DNA from: Williamsoniiplasma somnilux
GTDB lineage: Bacteria > Bacillota_I > Bacilli_A > Mycoplasmatales > Mycoplasmataceae
NCBI RefSeq assembly: GCF_002804005.1
Contig: NZ_CP024965.1
Coordinates: forward strand, 434,001-498,000
DNA length: 64,000 nucleotides
Reading direction: 5' to 3'
A program made the translations under genes and the position numbers. The notes below the pieces were generated by a model. That model saw nothing but the letters and a program-made list of their open reading frames with translations, ran no database searches and was not told the DNA's origin. Below are positions 10,812-37,811 of the stretch, piece by piece. Each line of letters starts with the position of its first letter. Position 1 is the stretch's first letter.

Positions 10812-11459
10812 TGTAGAATACTTCAAAACAATCAGTTTTAAAGATATTAAAATAAAACAAAAATACCAAAAAGAAATTGACAAAATACAAAAACAAACTG
10901 ATTTAAATGAAATAGCTAATAAATTAGGCGAATTATTCGAAAAATTGGCAACTGATCAAGAAATTAATCTTGCTATTGTTGTTCAATATTTTTTACAAAG
11001 ATATACTTTTTTAAATAGAGCGAACAATGATTATTCAATTTATACAAACGATCTTGAACAGATAGCTTTAAATTTAGAAGTTGGGTAACATTTAATCAAG
11101 TTTTTATTCCCTATTTTAATTCTCAAATTGATTTTTATCTTTCTAACTTTATTTATACTTTAAATAATTATCAAATATGAGGATGAAATGAAAGTTTTTT
11201 TAAAGAAATTGACAACTACATAAGCATAATTTTAATTGAAAAGGATTTTGCAAAAAAAGTTCAAATAATAGAGGAATTTATTTTAAAGATTCAAAATTCA
11301 CAACAACTTTGAAATGAACTTGATGAAAAAAGTGATGATCACGAAAAGAAAAACTTTATCTTCAATTTAAGTGAACTGAAAATCGTTTTGCAAACAATTG
11401 ACACATTAATTGAAAAAGTTGTCCATAATCTAATGAAAATAAATGAGGATGAAAAATAA
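10810..11459 (+). pseudogene. Decayed gene of unknown function (frameshift, no start codon)
   Basis: Two open stretches that read on into each other only with a frame change. The first runs without any ATG from about 10800 to a TAA near 11086 and encodes FKTISFKDIKIKQKYQ... LEQIALNLEVG. The second, in another frame, is open from about 11070 to the TAA at 11457-11459 and encodes WVTFNQVFIPYFNSQIDFYL...LMKINEDEK with three TGA Trp. Both are helical and Lys/Glu-rich, with the same base composition as neighbouring genes. I read this as one gene broken near 11080 that has also lost its start. A sequencing error could explain one shift but not the missing start. The family is not recognised. Confidence 0.55.
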
Positions 11460-11752
11460 TGGAAAATATAAAGAAAAGTAAAAAAGAACTTATTGAAGAA
11501 AATAGAGTATTAAAAGATCAAATAATAGAATTTAACAAAATTTTAAAAGACCTTGAAAAAGAAATGAGAAAAAAAATTTGATTATGGATGTTATTGCCAT
11601 TATTTGGCTTTATTATTTTCGCTTTTTTATTGCAAAAACGCAAAGATAGCGAAAAATATGCTCCAGCTTTATTGAATGTTAAAACAGAAATAGTAAAAAA
11701 CGAATTAAAGATAAAAATTAATGATACTGCAATCAACAATCTTGAAAATTAA
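11459..11752 (+). CDS. Hypothetical single-span membrane protein (97 aa)
   Basis: Starts MENIKKSKKELIEENRVLKD; its ATG overlaps the TAA of the decayed gene (TAATG), which suggests the two were once translationally coupled. An N-terminal coiled-coil helix (residues 3-40) is followed by one hydrophobic span (about 41-62, LWMLLPLFGFIIFAFLL) and a polar tail. One TGA is Trp. No family is recognised. The marR -35 box overlaps its stop codon. Confidence 0.65.
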
Positions 11753-11791
11753 TGACAAAATAGTAAAAATATGGTATTATCTCATTTGAGA
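11752..11791 (+). promoter_or_regulatory. marR promoter with overlapping operator-like palindrome
   Basis: -35 ATGACA (11752-11757), a 17-nt spacer and -10 TATTAT (11775-11780) form a good sigma-A promoter. TCTCA (11780-11784) and TGAGA (11787-11791) form an inverted repeat beginning at the last base of the -10 box and covering the likely start site. MarR repressors usually bind such sites in their own promoters, so autoregulation is likely. Confidence 0.6.
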
Positions 11792-11805: not shown

Positions 11806-12258
11806 ATGATATACCACGAAAACAATGAATTTAAGGATATACCAACAGTTTTAAAAATTTACATGTTAGTTATAAACACAGTAAAATTTTTATACTCAAA
11901 AATTGACCCACAAAATTTAGATAAAATAAGCATTTTAACATTAATGCTTATTTACCATATGCCAGGAATCAATCAAAATAAAGTGGCTAATACTTTAAAC
12001 ATTGATAAAACTACAACTGGAAGAATTTTATCTAAACTTGAAGAAGAAAAATATATCGAAAGAGTTCAAGATAAAAATAATAAAAGAAGTAATGTTTTAC
12101 GCACAATTGAAAAAGCGGATCAATTAATTGAGAAAATAGCTAAAACAGTTGATGAATATGTCAAAAATATTGAAGATGGTTTAACTGATGAAGAAATTTT
12201 GAAATTAAGAGAAGTTGTTAATTTTTTACTAAAAAATTCTATAAAACTTGCTAGATAA
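11806..12258 (+). CDS. MarR-family transcriptional regulator
   Basis: A 150-aa winged-helix regulator. The DNA-binding helix-turn-helix is MPGINQNKVANTLNIDKTTTG (about residues 50-70) followed by RILSKLEEEKYIERVQDKNNKRSN, the recognition helix and the D..NKR wing of MarR proteins. Flanking N- and C-terminal helices form the dimer interface. MarR proteins normally respond to small ligands and repress adjacent transport or stress genes. Here it is the first gene of a unit with the YhgE/Pip-like and P-type ATPase-like genes. GGAG precedes the ATG and the promoter carries a palindrome. Confidence 0.9.
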   Translation: MIYHENNEFKDIPTVLKIYMLVINTVKFLYSKIDPQNLDKISILTLMLIYHMPGINQNKVANTLNIDKTTTGRILSKLEEEKYIERVQDKNNKRSNVLRTIEKADQLIEKIAKTVDEYVKNIEDGLTDEEILKLREVVNFLLKNSIKLAR

Positions 12259-12295: not shown

Positions 12296-14653
12296 ATGAA
12301 AAAAATTAAAAATTGATTAATTAATTTATGAATTAGTTTTATAACAGAACTCCAAGATCGAGTTTTGATGAGCAGAAAACGAATTATTAAATTTATTGGA
12401 ATAATTTTTGTGCCAATCATTTACGGCGTTGTTTGTTTAGTAGCCTTTTGAAATCCAATGCCAAACATAGGTAATGCTCCAACTGCAATAATGGATAATG
12501 ACCATCCGATATTAATTGTTGAAAATGTTGACATTTCAAACAAAAAAATTGAGCTAGGAGTTGTTAATAGTTATCAAGATGGTGATCAAAATAATATTAA
12601 TTTAGAAGAAATTTACAACAACCCAAATCAATCTAATCAATTTAAATATGATGAATTATTAAAAATTAAATTAGCTTTAGAAGAAAGCAAAAATTCATTT
12701 ATTTTTTCTACTGATAATGGTGAAATTAAAAAAGGCCAACTAACAAAATTGAGAGTACTTAGTGCTTGAGAGCTTATAAAAAGCAAATTGTTACCTAAAA
12801 CTGATATAAAAATAAATGATGAAAATTATCAATTTTCAACACCTGTAATCACCGAAGGTTTAGCTTTAAGAAATATTAGATATATTTCAAACGCAAATGA
12901 AATTAGCAAACAGTGGGAAGGTTCTAAATATTATTTACAGGCAAAAATAGAAAATAATTATTTAAGTAAAATTGTTAATAGTTTTGGTAAATTATTTAAT
13001 TCACCTTCTAATAAAAATGAACAAATTGATATTCAACCATTAAAAATATGAACTACTTTTGAACGCAATTTTATTTTTGGATACTACATGAATACATTTT
13101 CTAATTTTGCAAAAGGAATGTTTCTTCAAAGCATACCAGGATTAATCATTGACACGGCTCTTGACAATGTTTTTTCAACTGCTGGAATAAAAGGTGAGCA
13201 AATAAGAGCGATAATAGGAAATGAAATAAAAGTTTCGAATAAATTTAATGAAAAAACTAACTATATCCTTTTAAATGCTGACTTAAAAAAATTATTTAAT
13301 TTTGAAAACAATGAACAAAAAAAGGCAGCTGAAAAGCAAATAGCGACAAGAACATTATTTGGAACATTAAATTCAAACGGAACACAACCAGAAGATTTTA
13401 TTCCAGGAAAATTTATTAATCAAATGAAGAATCTACAATTTATTTTTGAATTAATAAATAAAATAATTTTTAATAACAATTCAGTTATTGATATTAATGA
13501 AATTAATCAAATCATTTTTAAAATATTAACAGGCACAAAATTAGATAACAAAACGATAGATTTTTCTAAATTTGCAATTACAAACTCAGATAAAACTGTA
13601 ATGAATCAAAATGACTTTATCAAAGGTATAAATCATGTTTTAAAAGAAAATGGTTTAGCAAATTCAATTGGTTCACTAATTAGAACTATAATTTTAAAAA
13701 CTCATTTAGAGAACGAACTTGATCAATTATTAAACACTAAATGAGTTGATGTTGAAATAAGGGGAAAAGAAAACGGTTTATACGGAATTGGATTAGGAGA
13801 ATTCTTTCTTGTGATCGGGATTTGAATCGGTGTTTTAATGCAAACATTTATTTATGATCGAGCAAAAAGACGTAAAAAATCTTCACAATCTACATGATAT
13901 TTATCAAAAACATTATTAATGTTGTTAACAACTTTTATTCAAGTTACAGCTCAGGTATGAATGGCATATGCTTTTGGATGAAATATCTTAGGTTTAGAAA
14001 CAATTCTTTATGTTTGAATTTTTTTAATTGCTTCAGGATTCATGTTTGTAATTTTAATTCAAGCACTATGATTTTTAGTTAAAGATGAATCTGTAGGTAA
14101 ATTTTTAGTAGTTTTAGTAATGGTTTTATCTTTGGCTTCTGGAGGTGGCACTTTCCCTGCTTTCTCACAATTTAAATTTTTTGAAATTATAAGTTATTTA
14201 GTACCTTTCACATATGTTTTGAAAGGATTAGGAGCAATAGTTTTTGGAGTTCCTGAATTAGGAACTAATCCAGTTACTACAAATGTAGTTTTAATTAATT
14301 TTTCAATCATTATTTTATTTGTTCTAATCTTTTTAACTTTAGGTCTTTTAGTAGGCGCTAGAAATAGACATAAAGATATTTTATTCGGATCATTTAAAGG
14401 CAAAAAAATATTGATAGCTTTAAAAGAATTGAAACGTAGTGAAGAAGACATTAATTCTTTTGCAAATGGTGAAAAAAAATTTCAAAAATATAATTGAAAA
14501 TCATTGGGAGCAGAACAAGATTTAGAACTTTATCGCAAAGTTAAAGAATTATATCCATTCGAAGGAACCTTTAAATGATGGAAAAATAAAGATCACGATA
14601 AAGTTGTCAAACCAAACGAAACCGATGATGATATAATTTCTAGAAATGAATAA
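12296..14653 (+). CDS. YhgE/Pip-type membrane protein (785 aa)
   Basis: AGGAGGA precedes the ATG. The layout is that of the YhgE/Pip (phage-infection-protein-like) family: a cytoplasmic start, one span at about residues 26-48 (FIGIIFVPIIYGVVCLVAFW), a large extracellular region (about 50-490) that opens with NIGNAPTAIMDNDHP, the counterpart of the family's NIPVAVVNxDxG, and then about six C-terminal spans resembling an ABC-2 permease. The cytoplasmic tail is charged. Such proteins are implicated in phage adsorption, type VII-like export or general transport; the role here is unknown. It stands between marR and the pseudo-ATPase, 14 nt before the latter. Confidence 0.8.
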
Positions 14654-14667
14654 AAGGAGGCCAAATT

Positions 14668-17448
14668 ATGGTTAATAACACTCTAGAAAAACCAAAAGTT
14701 TTTAAAAATAAACTGAAACGTAATGAATGGCCTCATAAAAATGATATTAAAATTTTTGCAAATCTTTCAATTAATGAAACTGTTGAAAAACTTAATGTTG
14801 AAACGTTGGGTTTAACAGAAAAATATATATCAAAACATCAAAAAAGTAAACGTGTTTTAAAGAAAGAACACAAGAAAAAATATCGTTTTGCTTTTTGAAA
14901 ACATTTATTAAAAAATCTTAAAGAACCATTTACTTTATTATTGTTGGCGATAGCAATTTATAACTTAGTTATGTATGGTTTAGAACAAAATATTACCAAT
15001 ATTGCTGGTGGATTACTAGTAGTTTTTTTAGTTGGAGCTTCAATAATTTTTGATATTTCTGCCGAGTATTCAATGCACAAATCTAACAACAAAATCAAAA
15101 CAGGGAGTAATGAATTAGTTGGTTGTTTACGTAACATTATTTTGTCACCAAATACACTTTTGACTAGTGAAGATATTTTGTTACAAAAAGTTACTCGTAT
15201 TAGAAAAGAAGAACTTTTTGTTGGAGACATCATTTACCTTCGATCTGGTGATGTTGTTCCAGTTGATTGTAAAGTTATTCATAAAAATAATCTAAAATTA
15301 ACTCAAGAAGTAATGAATGGAGCAAAAACTCCTATTGAGAAAAAAGCATTTAATACTTATAATGGTGATAATTTATTTCAATTAACAAATATTTTGTATC
15401 GTGGAACTAAAGTTGTTGATGGAAGTTGTTGAGCGATAGTTATATACAAAAGCGCAGAAACATACTTTGAATTTAAACAAGCGAAAGCAAAAAATAATCA
15501 ACCTAAATCCATATTTTTTGACAAAGTTAAAGATGTGACAAAATTTTTAGTAAGATCAGTAATCATTTTTGTGCCCATGATTTTTATTTTAGCTGTTATT
15601 CTAGAGGGCTTCAGTACAGATTTTAAGAACATTGATATTTATTTAGATTCATTAGTTTTTTCAATGGCTATTGCTGTGGCGTTAGCTCCTGATGCATTAC
15701 CTTTGATTATGACTTCTGCATTTTCGAAATCAAGAAAATTACTTGCTAAAAAAAATATTATTTCTAGAGATATTACAGCTGTTCAAAACATTGGGGTAAT
15801 GGATGTCGTAATGATTGATTATGAAGATATTTTCGTTCATAAAAATTTCAGATTAGAAGAAATTGTGAATTTAAAATTGGAAGCTGATTCCGAAATAGCA
15901 AAACTTTCATTGTTAAGTTTTTTAGCTTCTCCTTCAGATAATAGAGATATTAATTCAGCTATTGCAAAATCACGCAAAATGATTGGTTTAAAAAATCAAA
16001 TTAACGATAAATATAAAGTTATTAGAACGATTTCCTCTTTAGCGCATCCAGGTGTATACACAACTGTTGTTGAAGACAAGCAAGGACAAAGATGAGCAAT
16101 TAGTAGAGGGGCTTTAACGACAATCTTAAATAGTTGCAATAAATTCAATGATACCAATAATGAAGTTAAAGCAATTAATAAGCAAAATTTAAACAAAACT
16201 TTACAAGAAGCTTTTGTGGCAATAACTAATAAATCTTATATTTCTGTGGGAATTGCAATAAAAAAAGTAAATGACATAAATAAAGATAATGAAGAAGAAA
16301 TTATAAAAGATAATTTTACTTTAATTGGATTAGTAAATTTAAAGCAAGAAGCAAAACCCAAAGTTAATGAACAATTAAAATTATTAAGCAAGTCAGCATT
16401 AAGTCTTAAATTATTTTCCCAAAGAACTTTAGAATATGCTTTATCAATGACTAAAAACCTTGATTTTAAAGTATCAGATTATATTTCTGGTCCCGAAATA
16501 CAAAACATGACAGACAAAGAACTGCAAAAAGTTGTTGAAAAAATAAACTTGTTTTACGATATGGATCCACTTACAGAAGTTCGTGTGATTAACATATTAA
16601 AGAAATTGAAACACACAGTTGGATATATTGGAAGAGATTTAAATAGTTCTTTGCAAATTCTAAATGCTAATGTCGGAATTACAACTCATGATTCTGATGT
16701 ATTTGCAAAAAACTGTGCAAATATGTTGATAGGAAACGACGGTATTTATGAAGTTTTGACAGCAATTAAGCAGTCAAGACGTTCATTGGTCAATGTAATG
16801 AAATTTGTTAAAATCAAAACAGTTTGATCAATTTCTATAACGATTAAATTGATTATCGGACTATTCTTGCTTGGAAATGAATCAATAAGCGAAATTCAGC
16901 TTTTGGTTCAAAATCTAATTTTTGATTTTGTTGAATATATGATTATTTATGATTGGGTTGATGAAAGATATACAAAGCGACCTGTTTCTTGAGATACCAA
17001 ATCTATTTTAAAATTTGCTATATGAAATGGAGTAATTATTCAAATAATTTCTTTAGTTAACTTAGCAATTACCGGATTTGTGTTATACCCAGATATGTTT
17101 TCTGATATTAAAAACGGTGTTGAAGGATATGAAAGCAAATTAGCGATATTACAAACAATTATTTGAACAGAAGATTCCATAATTCATTTAATTTCTGTAT
17201 TAATAATTAGAAATCACTATAAATCTATTTTAACTGATAATGCTGCTTATGGTTTATTGTTATCAATTCTAATAGCAGGGATCTTATTCTTTATAATACC
17301 TTTTATCCCAGAAATTAAATTTACTTTTAATATTCAACCACCAAAATTTGAATGATATTTATATTCTTTAGGATTATTTGTTATTTACACAATACTAGCC
17401 TCTTTATGAAAATGAATTTATGTTCACTATTTCCATAAATGATTATAA
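14668..17448 (+). CDS. P-type ATPase homologue lacking catalytic motifs (pseudo-ATPase, MgtA-like)
   Basis: A 926-aa protein with the complete outline of an MgtA-type (P-IIIB) ATPase: N-terminal cytoplasmic part, spans near residues 84-125, an actuator domain, a pair of spans with APDALPLIM in place of TPEMLPMI, a P/N region, and six C-terminal spans. Catalytic motifs are all changed. TGES is NGAKTP (217-222), DKTGT is DYEDI (384-388), the TGDN position reads SQRT (584-587) and GDGxNDxP is GRDLNSSL (655-662). Only the aspartate at 384 remains. The frame is intact, with a strong RBS (AAAGGAGG), so this is a maintained protein, probably a sensor, scaffold or channel-like subunit rather than a pump. 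Confidence 0.85.
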
Positions 17449-17470: not shown

Positions 17471-17546
17471 GTCTGATTAGCGCAATTGGTAGAGCAACTG
17501 ACTCTTAATCAGTGGGTTGTGGGTTCGATTCCCACATCAGGCACCA
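17471..17546 (+). tRNA. trnK: tRNA-Lys (anticodon CTT)
   Basis: Acceptor GTCTGAT pairs with ATCAGGC (one T-G pair), the D arm is present, and the anticodon arm ACTGA-CTCTTAA-TCAGT gives anticodon CTT reading AAG. The T arm is TGTGGGTTCGATTCCCACA, and CCA is encoded (17544-17546). It begins 22 nt after the pseudo-ATPase stop and is followed by a terminator. Confidence 0.96.
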
Positions 17547-34937: not shown

Positions 34938-37811
34938 TTATCTATATTGTTTTCTTTTTCTTTTAACTTTTGCTAATTCTTTTTTACGATCTTCTTCGAC
35001 CATTGTGCTAACTAAGTGACGATTGCGTTGTCAAGATTTAGGAGCTCAGTGATATGAATAAAAAGTAATCGCATCAAAAATTAAAATTAAAATTGTTGGA
35101 ATAAATGACAATGCAAAAGCAATAAAAAATAAACCAACATTAGATGCATTTCAACCTTCTGCACCGTAATTCATTAATCCGAAAATCGAACTATTAATTC
35201 CAGGTACTAAAATCAATATTAAATTCATAGCCCCTGCAATAAATGAAGCATATATTAATGTTGGTGATATTAATAGATTAACTTTTCTTGAAACTCTTCA
35301 ATTTGACAGTTTAATTGTATGAGCAAAAAATAAAGCAGCAAAGACAGTTGTAATAAATAATGAAGTACGTCCGTAAACAATCCCTTCTTCTTTAACTAAA
35401 GTTGATATTTCGGTTGAAGTAAGGAGATCATATCAAGATAAACCATGTAGTAAAGAATCGGGAGTGAATGTCATTCCAATAAAGAATGAACCAATTCCTG
35501 CAATACTTGTAGCGATTCCTATTTTGATGATTGGTCAAATTAAACCGTTTAATAATTTATTTTTTCCTGTTTTTGGAGGCAACATCATTAATGTTGGATC
35601 TAATGGACCCATTCCAATAGCGATTGCTAAACATGACTCCACAATCAAGTTAATGTATAAAATATTAGTTGCTTCAAGAGGGGAAACATGAATTAGTAAT
35701 GAAAGAATAAAAATCGTTAAAACGTTAGCTAAGTTAAATCCCATCAATAAAACAATAGCTCGTTTAATTTTTTGATAGACGTTTCTTCCTTCGTTAACCC
35801 CTTTCATAATTGTTGCGAAATTATCATCAGTTAAAATAACATCTGATGCTTGTTTAGCAACGTCTGTTCCAGTAATTCCCATCGCAACACCAATGTCTGC
35901 TTTTGATAATGATGGTGCATCATTAACACCATCTCCAGTCATAGAAACAATATAACCTTTTGCTTGTAATGCTGAGACAATTCTAACTTTGTGTTCTGGG
36001 TTAACACGAGCAAAGACACTGATATTATCAATAATTCTTCCTAATTCATCATCTGTCATTTTTTCTAATACTTCAGAAGAAATTACTTCATAACTTGTAT
36101 AAGCTAAATCTAAATCACGAGCAATAGCTAAAGCTGTAGTTGCGTGGTCTCCTGTAATCATAACTACACCAATTCCTGCAGCGTGAGCTTCACTAATTGC
36201 TTGTACAGCTTCATTTCTAACAGGATCAATCATAGCAACAGCGCCTAAAAAGATTAATGATTTTTCTAGTTCCCCATTACTATCGACATCATCATAATTT
36301 TCATTGTAAGCAAACGCTAAAACTCTTAAAGCATCATTTGATAATTTTTTAGCTTCTTCAAGTAATTGATTTTTATGGTCTTTTGTTAACTTAACGATTT
36401 TGTTATTAAGCATGATACGGTCACAAATATTCAATAATTGATCAATAGCACCTTTTGTAAAAACAGTATTTGTTCCAGAAATGTTATTAACAGTTGTCAT
36501 TAATTTTCTTTCGCTATCAAAAGGTATTTCATCAATTCGATTTCAATCAATTCTTGCTTTTTGTTCATCAATATTCATTAATTCGGCAAAGTCAACTAAA
36601 GCTAACTCAGTTGGATCACCTAAACGTTCAGAATCTTCTGTAACTGAATCGTTTGGTAAAACCAATGATTTTAAAAATAAATCTTTTTGTTCATCTAATA
36701 ATGATTTAACATACTCTTCGCTAGTGATAGTTGTATTATTTAAAATAACTCTTTTAACTGTCATTTTATTTTGTGTTAAAGTTCCGGTTTTGTCAGTACA
36801 AATAACATTTACAGAACCCAACGTTTCTACTGACGCCAATTTTTTAACAATGACGTTTTCCTTTGTCATTCTTTTTGTCGAAAAAGATAAGGTAATTGAA
36901 ACAACGGCTGATAAAGATTCTGGAATAACACCAATTGCTAAAGTAATTGCAATCATTAGATATTCTGCTCAAACTTGTCTTTCACCAGTGAAAAACATAC
37001 TTGTAAAAATTAGTACCCCAATTAAAGCAGCGATTGCTGAAATTCAATACGAAAAAGAACTTAATTTTTTTTCTAGTGGTGTTTGTTGGTGAACATTAGC
37101 ATTAACTGTAGTTGCGATTTTACCAATTTCTGTATCAGTTGCAGTTTTAATAACTACACCAATAGCTCTTCCAGCAGTTGTAAAAGTTGACATAAAGGCA
37201 ATGTTTTTCATTTCAGCTAAAATTAAAGTTTCTGATTGTGCTTTATGAGTTTTTTCAACAGGTACAGATTCTCCGGTTAAAATAGACTCATCAATCATGA
37301 ATTCTGAAGATTCAATAATTCTTAATTCTGCTGGTACATATTTACCAGCTTCCAGAATAACAATATCTCCAACGACTAGTTCTGCAGCATCAATCTCTTT
37401 TTGTGCACCGTCTCTTAAAACTACTGTTTTAGGTTTTGATAAAGACTTTAAAGCATCAACTGACTTTCGAGCTTTTACTGTTTGAACGGTTTCTAAAACA
37501 GCATCAACAATAACAATTAAAACAATTACGACAAAATCAATAAAGTCTTCAACGATTATTGGGGCATTCCAATTCCCAATTCTAGGAGCTACCACAGAAA
37601 TAACGGCTGCAGCCAATAAAATTAATTGTAATGGCTCAATTAAAGCCAAAAGAAATGTTACATATCAAGGTCTAACTTTACCTGCAGGAAGTTCGTTTCT
37701 TCCATTTTTAGCAAGTCTTTGATTTACCTCATCTTGAGTTAAACCCTTTTTAAAATCTGTATTGAGATTTTTTTCAATATCTTTTGGAGTCTGTGATTCA
37801 AAATTATTCAT
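34938..37811 (-). CDS. Cation-transporting P-type ATPase (Ca2+/Mg2+ type, intact)
   Basis: A 957-aa P-type pump. N-terminal 'cation ATPase' domain ([19 protein letters not shown]), actuator motif [10 protein letters not shown], the PEGL position as [11 protein letters not shown], phosphorylation motif CTDKTGTLT (Asp340), [13 protein letters not shown] and [19 protein letters not shown] are all intact. The overall type is P-II (SERCA/PMR1-like), so calcium or another divalent cation is the likely substrate; Na/K-like pumps are less likely in this family branch. AAGGGA precedes the ATG, 3 nt after engB. This is the functional counterpart to the motif-less homologue at 14668. Confidence 0.92.

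Follow-up and report, generated by a model that had tools for sequence, protein, structure and literature searches.

A conserved and probably non-catalytic MgtA-like protein encoded behind a YhgE/Pip-like gene in Williamsoniiplasma somnilux

Williamsoniiplasma somnilux is a wall-less bacterium, and the hosts of the gene described here are termed insect mycoplasmas. Within the window (the whole 64,000-nucleotide stretch of DNA that was analysed), an open reading frame at 14668–17448 encodes under genetic code 4 a 926-aa pseudo-P-type protein of the MgtA-like (P3B) type, with 11 TGA codons read as tryptophan. An earlier note made from the sequence had described this as a full-length MgtA-like frame of 926 codons behind a strong ribosome-binding site; both descriptions hold, as homology to MgtA extends over residues 5–922 and AGGAGG is present at 14655–14660. 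The ATG lies 14 nt downstream of the stop codon of the preceding gene (12296–14653), which codes for a 785-aa YhgE/Pip-like ABC-2-type membrane protein, and the two genes are probably co-transcribed. The YhgE-like protein passes the cut-off for Pfam ABC2_membrane_3 (53.5 bits versus 31.6), and its scores fall below the cut-offs of the NCBIfam YhgE models (C-terminal model TIGR03062, 88.9 versus 102.2 bits; N-terminal model, 33.8 versus 96.15 bits).

The first gene of the probable operon encodes a MarR-family regulator (11806–12258; Pfam MarR, 2.6e-12), and right before it there is an inverted repeat, TCTCA-TT-TGAGA (11780–11791), a possible autoregulatory operator. Further upstream is a gene for a 97-aa protein with, by eye, a coiled coil and a membrane helix (11459–11752), whose counterparts in relatives likewise precede the YhgE locus, an association seen in several genera. 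A tRNA-Lys(CTT) gene (17471–17546) bounds the syntenic slot on its 3′ side. All of these genes are on the forward strand.

The best structural relatives of the 926-aa protein are the solved MgtA structures, which match residues 5–922 with E 5e-59 (phmmer), and comparison of the family profile with the same structures gives E 4.7e-105. The P3B/MgtA homology runs end to end through the A, P, N, and M domains. TIGR01524 matches with E 2.5e-87 and 293.6 bits, short of its curated equivalog cut-off of 610.75. Pfam recognizes only two domains, A/M4 and the C-terminal cation-ATPase domain; the HAD and nucleotide domains are both found by Pfam in an intact pump in the same window (34938–37811) and neither is found in the 926-aa protein. 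That pump had been put forward as a control, and its motifs are indeed intact.

A search of 60 genomes of the family (Mycoplasmataceae) identified five orthologues with 32–36% identity (E 1e-158 to 1e-181), with the intact MgtA paralogues far behind (best match E 2e-100). The orthologues are in two further genera, such that six species in three genera have the gene; the named hosts are Mesoplasma seiffertii, Mesoplasma lactucae, Mesoplasma photuris, and Acholeplasma multilocale. A related-locus scan gave no match with the single protein as query and returned these four with the alignment as query. No further members were found in a class-wide search of 395 genomes, in which the window protein scored 1332 bits versus 507 for the top non-member. 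The six pseudo-pumps form one clade (clade A; SH-aLRT 100) that has a long stem and lies next to a second MgtA paralogue, and in a tree without TMEM94 the nearest relatives of the window protein are bacterial MgtA-type paralogues. All six genomes also contain an intact MgtA-1, and basal MgtA function is therefore covered.

We compared catalytic motifs across 69 aligned P-type sequences of the family, and each of the motif replacements reported in the earlier note is present. The TGES loop of the A domain is replaced by NGAKTP (residues 217–222; 15316–15333), DKTGT by DYEDI (residues 384–388; 15817–15831), TGDN (HAD motif II) by SQRT (residues 584–587; 16417–16428), and GDGxNDxP by GRDLNSSL (residues 655–662; 16630–16653). 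The note's conclusion that every catalytic motif is lost is correct for TGES, KTGT, TGDN, and GDGxND but not for the acceptor residue, as D384 aligns with the phosphorylatable aspartate of DKTGT and is present in all six pseudo-pumps, none of which has KTGT. TGES is absent from five of the six and retained in L006 alone, so their common ancestor still had this A-domain loop. A Ser/Thr is kept at motif II throughout. The Mg-binding aspartate of GDGxND is Arg, Lys, Ser, or Ala among the six, and the glycine that follows has become a new invariant aspartate, Asp657.

Further losses had escaped the earlier note. The HAD motif III lysine is Glu637 in the window protein (16576–16578) and Glu or Gln in all six, and the KG lysine of the N domain is Arg480. 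The Mg2+ ligands of Escherichia coli MgtA are N709, S776, and D780 (PMC10925321), and all three are gone: among the six, N709 in M5 is Ile or Leu, S776 in M7 is hydrophobic, and D780 in M7 is Ser, Ala, His, Met, or Asn. In M4, the glutamate E331 is Asp in all six, within PDALP in the window protein (residues 341–345; 15688–15702). The membrane part has also acquired invariant charges, K717 and K727 in M5 and D836 in M8; Lys727 (16846–16848) is Ser or Thr in the intact paralogues and lies three residues past the column of the lost ligand N709 (E. coli MgtA numbering). The window protein thus lacks the DKTGT, TGES, GDGxND, and motif III lysine that define a catalytic P-type ATPase, and because these defining motifs were tested and found missing we do not class it as one. 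It is very probably a catalytically dead MgtA-type protein that selection has kept.

The reading frames of all six pseudo-pump genes are open, and in a neutral simulation at 0.30 substitutions per site (200 runs) about 26 in-frame stops accumulated, with a minimum of 14, where the actual number is zero. The two most similar pseudo-pumps (58% identity) have a pN of 0.28 and a pS of 0.67, giving a dN/dS of at most about 0.21; as dS is saturated, this is a rough upper bound, and the ratio is uninformative for more distant pairs. In the same two genomes dN/dS is 0.31 for YhgE and 0.11 for the intact MgtA-1. The window locus does not mask decay, because it also contains the frameshifted remnant of a 236-aa gene (10831–11432, forward strand; tblastn in two frames, E 2e-19) whose counterparts (P0006, no clear Pfam family) are intact upstream of YhgE in relatives. 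At the level of sequence, the ATPase frame is shown to be under purifying selection and not in plain decay. The earlier proposal of a selected, non-pumping homologue is borne out by orthologues with the same losses in two other genera, by unbroken frames, and by dN/dS estimates that, where obtainable, are well under 1. Chance decay private to one strain is excluded because five orthologues have the same losses together with open frames, and sequencing error because the losses recur in independent assemblies.

Conservation is unevenly distributed among the six. Mean pairwise identity is 57% for residues 363–392 (the former phosphorylation loop), 52% for M5–M6, 50% for M3–M4, 43% for the rest of the P domain, 38% for the A domain, and 24%, the lowest value, for the N domain. 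There are 114 invariant positions, and the flanks of the catalytic columns are fixed while the columns themselves vary. As read from these alignments, the pattern is one in which the core and coupling elements are retained and ATP binding is not. The sequences show that the transmembrane core, the M4-to-P-domain link, and the P-domain core are conserved, and that the parts for binding ATP, cycling phosphate, and binding Mg2+ are replaced or free to vary.

The earlier note had also suggested a link to the adjacent YhgE/Pip-like protein, and this is only partly upheld. The order YhgE, ATPase, tRNA-Lys, ribF-like, nfo-like (the last two names being assigned by eye) is shared by the window genome and both genomes of a second genus, and in G006, from another genus, MarR and YhgE are followed by a different dead ATPase, with the same ribF-like and nfo-like genes downstream of this cluster. 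In the three species of the genus of G053–G055, however, the clade A gene is at three different places, never adjoining YhgE, and YhgE is often present in genomes without a pseudo-pump; both observations argue against a partnership. YhgE occurs in all nine genomes that encode a dead P3B protein (clade A or the second set, pseudo-B, described below) versus 31 of 51 others, with a Fisher p of 0.023 that is uncorrected for relatedness and becomes 0.17 for clade A alone.

The gene is missing from some relatives. G057, from the same genus as the window, has YhgE and tRNA-Lys but no ATPase, and G056 has 295 bp (C1:5140-5435) where its close relative G055 carries a MATE gene and the pseudo-pump. The joint absence of MATE and pseudo-pump in G056 (compared with L038 6557-10814), with flanks about 80% identical, looks like a single gain or loss event. 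MATE itself was rejected as a specific partner, as it is in 24 of the 60 genomes, many of them without a pseudo-pump.

We see about an even chance that the pseudo-pump has put the P-type fold to use as a structural or regulatory partner, most likely of the YhgE-like protein, and not as a pump; a partner or regulatory role of any kind is given the same even weight. The YhgE-like protein is the leading candidate for that partner, although we name it tentatively. As a structural or regulatory subunit of this ABC-2-type protein, encoded in the same, probably MarR-controlled operon, the pseudo-pump would move no ions on its own. The active site has in effect swapped charges, with the motif III lysine becoming Glu or Gln and the motif IV aspartate Lys, Arg, Ser, or Ala, and the new pairing might stand in for the metal; with K727 in the ion site, it would hold the protein in one or two fixed conformations. 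Residual chemistry at D384 could persist, given its retention in all six. An AlphaFold model built from five sequences reached a pLDDT of 53, too poor for testing the proposed contacts (K727 with D836 or D342, and E637 with R656).

Among the alternatives, one in which the protein acts alone through its transmembrane core, as a membrane sensor, a lipid-binding protein, or a passive conduit, fares best but is unlikely. M3–M6 are among the best-conserved segments and contain the new invariant K717 and K727, with D836 in M8; a phosphatidic-acid-like lipid has been reported in the M3/M4/M5/M7 groove of TMEM94 (PMC12134183); and the gene is retained in the three species where it is located outside the operon. 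A stand-alone role leaves unexplained, however, both the retention of a large cytosolic P domain and the conserved slot behind YhgE.

Pairing with, and modulating, a live paralogue is a common fate of pseudoenzymes, and the dead copy might correspondingly hetero-oligomerise with an intact MgtA. E. coli MgtA dimerises (PMC10925321) and an intact MgtA-1 is available wherever a clade A pseudo-pump occurs, yet we consider such regulation quite unlikely: the reported interface includes P546-P547-K548-E549, and the matching segment, D-x-PKP in the intact paralogues, is missing in the pseudo-pumps, in which the N domain, also within that interface, is the least conserved part. Moreover, another group did not observe the E. 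coli dimer (PMC13174805), and the pseudo-pump gene is unlinked to mgtA.

It is more doubtful still that the protein is a non-canonical yet active transporter that uses D384, as has been claimed for ERMA/TMEM94. Mg2+ uptake by ERMA, in which TGES and GDGVND are missing, is reported to depend on its aspartate (PMC13322241), and the invariance of D384 and the Ser/Thr kept at motif II are consistent with such a mechanism here. D384 retention alone is weak evidence, however, because the aspartate lies within a 30-residue stretch of which nine residues are invariant. Neither the motif III lysine nor the Mg-binding aspartate survives, the substitutes often being of opposite charge; the N domain, the least conserved of all, has lost its lysine, and the Mg ligands N709, S776, and D780 have likewise disappeared. 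TMEM94 itself has been reported to lack ATPase activity (PMC12134183). A decaying pseudogene whose frame is open by chance would fit the absences in G057 and G056 but is highly improbable, as it would require six separate decays and is already contradicted by open frames over deep divergence where some 26 stops are expected, by the low closest-pair dN/dS, by the 114 invariant positions, and by a perfect ribosome-binding site.

Besides clade A there is a second group of full-length, P3B-like proteins with the frame kept and catalysis lost (pseudo-B: L062 665-3337, L068 742-3438, and L070 629-3352). In these NKSGP, DVKGV, and NKTGS replace DKTGT, such that the acceptor aspartate is Asn in two of the three, the glutamate of TGES is Lys or Ser, and, unlike in clade A, the motif III lysine is retained. 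The dead ATPase of the G006 YhgE cluster belongs to the pseudo-B branch and not to clade A. The best tree separates the two sets, although the AU test does not exclude that they form a single clade (p 0.198). Two other kinds of paralogue were observed. A second MgtA paralogue with intact motifs lacks the Mg ligands N709 and D780 (L035 at G000:C1:43651-46287, L045, L046, L051, L053, L056, and L059) and may have a substrate different from that of MgtA. The P3B-like L064 808-3543 (G051) has DKTGT and GDGKND with SGKQ where TGES is expected, and is perhaps an intermediate stage of catalytic loss. It is possible, if somewhat doubtful, that the P-type fold operates in clade A without the canonical phosphorylation cycle, either as an obligate dead subunit gating the YhgE/Pip-like ABC-2 protein or as a transporter that depends on D384 in the manner of ERMA; in that event the fold would have been turned from a pump into something else at least twice within one bacterial family.

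In the open-access literature we found no report of a bacterial P-type homologue conserved across genera without the whole catalytic set; in a published survey, DKTGT was not intact in 22 of 9,634 P-type sequences, and these cases were characterised as single point substitutions (PMC3896382). The window protein is homologous to MgtA/MgtB (P3B, TIGR01524; PDB 8uy7, 9ejn) over its whole length, and it has the same order of domains, the P-x-x-LP break in M4, the P-domain core, and the acceptor aspartate. It differs from them in lacking TGES, KTGT, TGDN, GDGxND, the motif III lysine, the KG lysine, and the Mg ligands, in having a lysine in M5, and in scoring less than half of the curated cut-off.

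The YhgE/Pip family is poorly understood and has phage receptors among its members. The protein encoded upstream resembles L. lactis PIP, E. faecalis PIP-EF, and EsaA-like proteins in matching both the N- and C-terminal domain models, and departs from family members in scoring under the NCBIfam cut-offs. We found no report in the open-access literature of a P-type partner for known YhgE/Pip relatives, and the pseudo-pump is a first candidate partner for this family. A precedent for such an arrangement is KdpB of KdpFABC, a catalytically active P-type subunit with a non-P-type membrane partner and a lysine in M5. The window protein would share with KdpB the pairing of a P-type protein with a non-P-type membrane protein, if the complex that we infer is formed, and it shares the M5 lysine; unlike KdpB it is, on present evidence, catalytically dead, and its candidate partner is an ABC-2-type YhgE-like protein.

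The closest published parallel is human TMEM94/ERMA, which has DKQGI and GSSANL and no TGES. One group claims that it is an aspartate-dependent Mg2+ pump (PMC13322241), whereas a second reports no ATPase activity and disputes its classification as P-type (PMC12134183), and these papers also put in dispute the earlier note's premise that no active P-type ATPase can do without the motif residues. P-type architecture, loss of TGES, replacement of GDGxND, and retention of the aspartate are common to TMEM94 and the window protein. TMEM94 differs in being eukaryotic and in keeping the DK and G of the motif, and the window protein in having bacterial MgtA-type nearest relatives and bacterial gene neighbours. 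The window protein might function in the way TMEM94 does, and a conserved bacterial pseudo-pump provides a tractable system for addressing the question at the centre of that dispute, whether a P-type fold can function without the ATP cycle.
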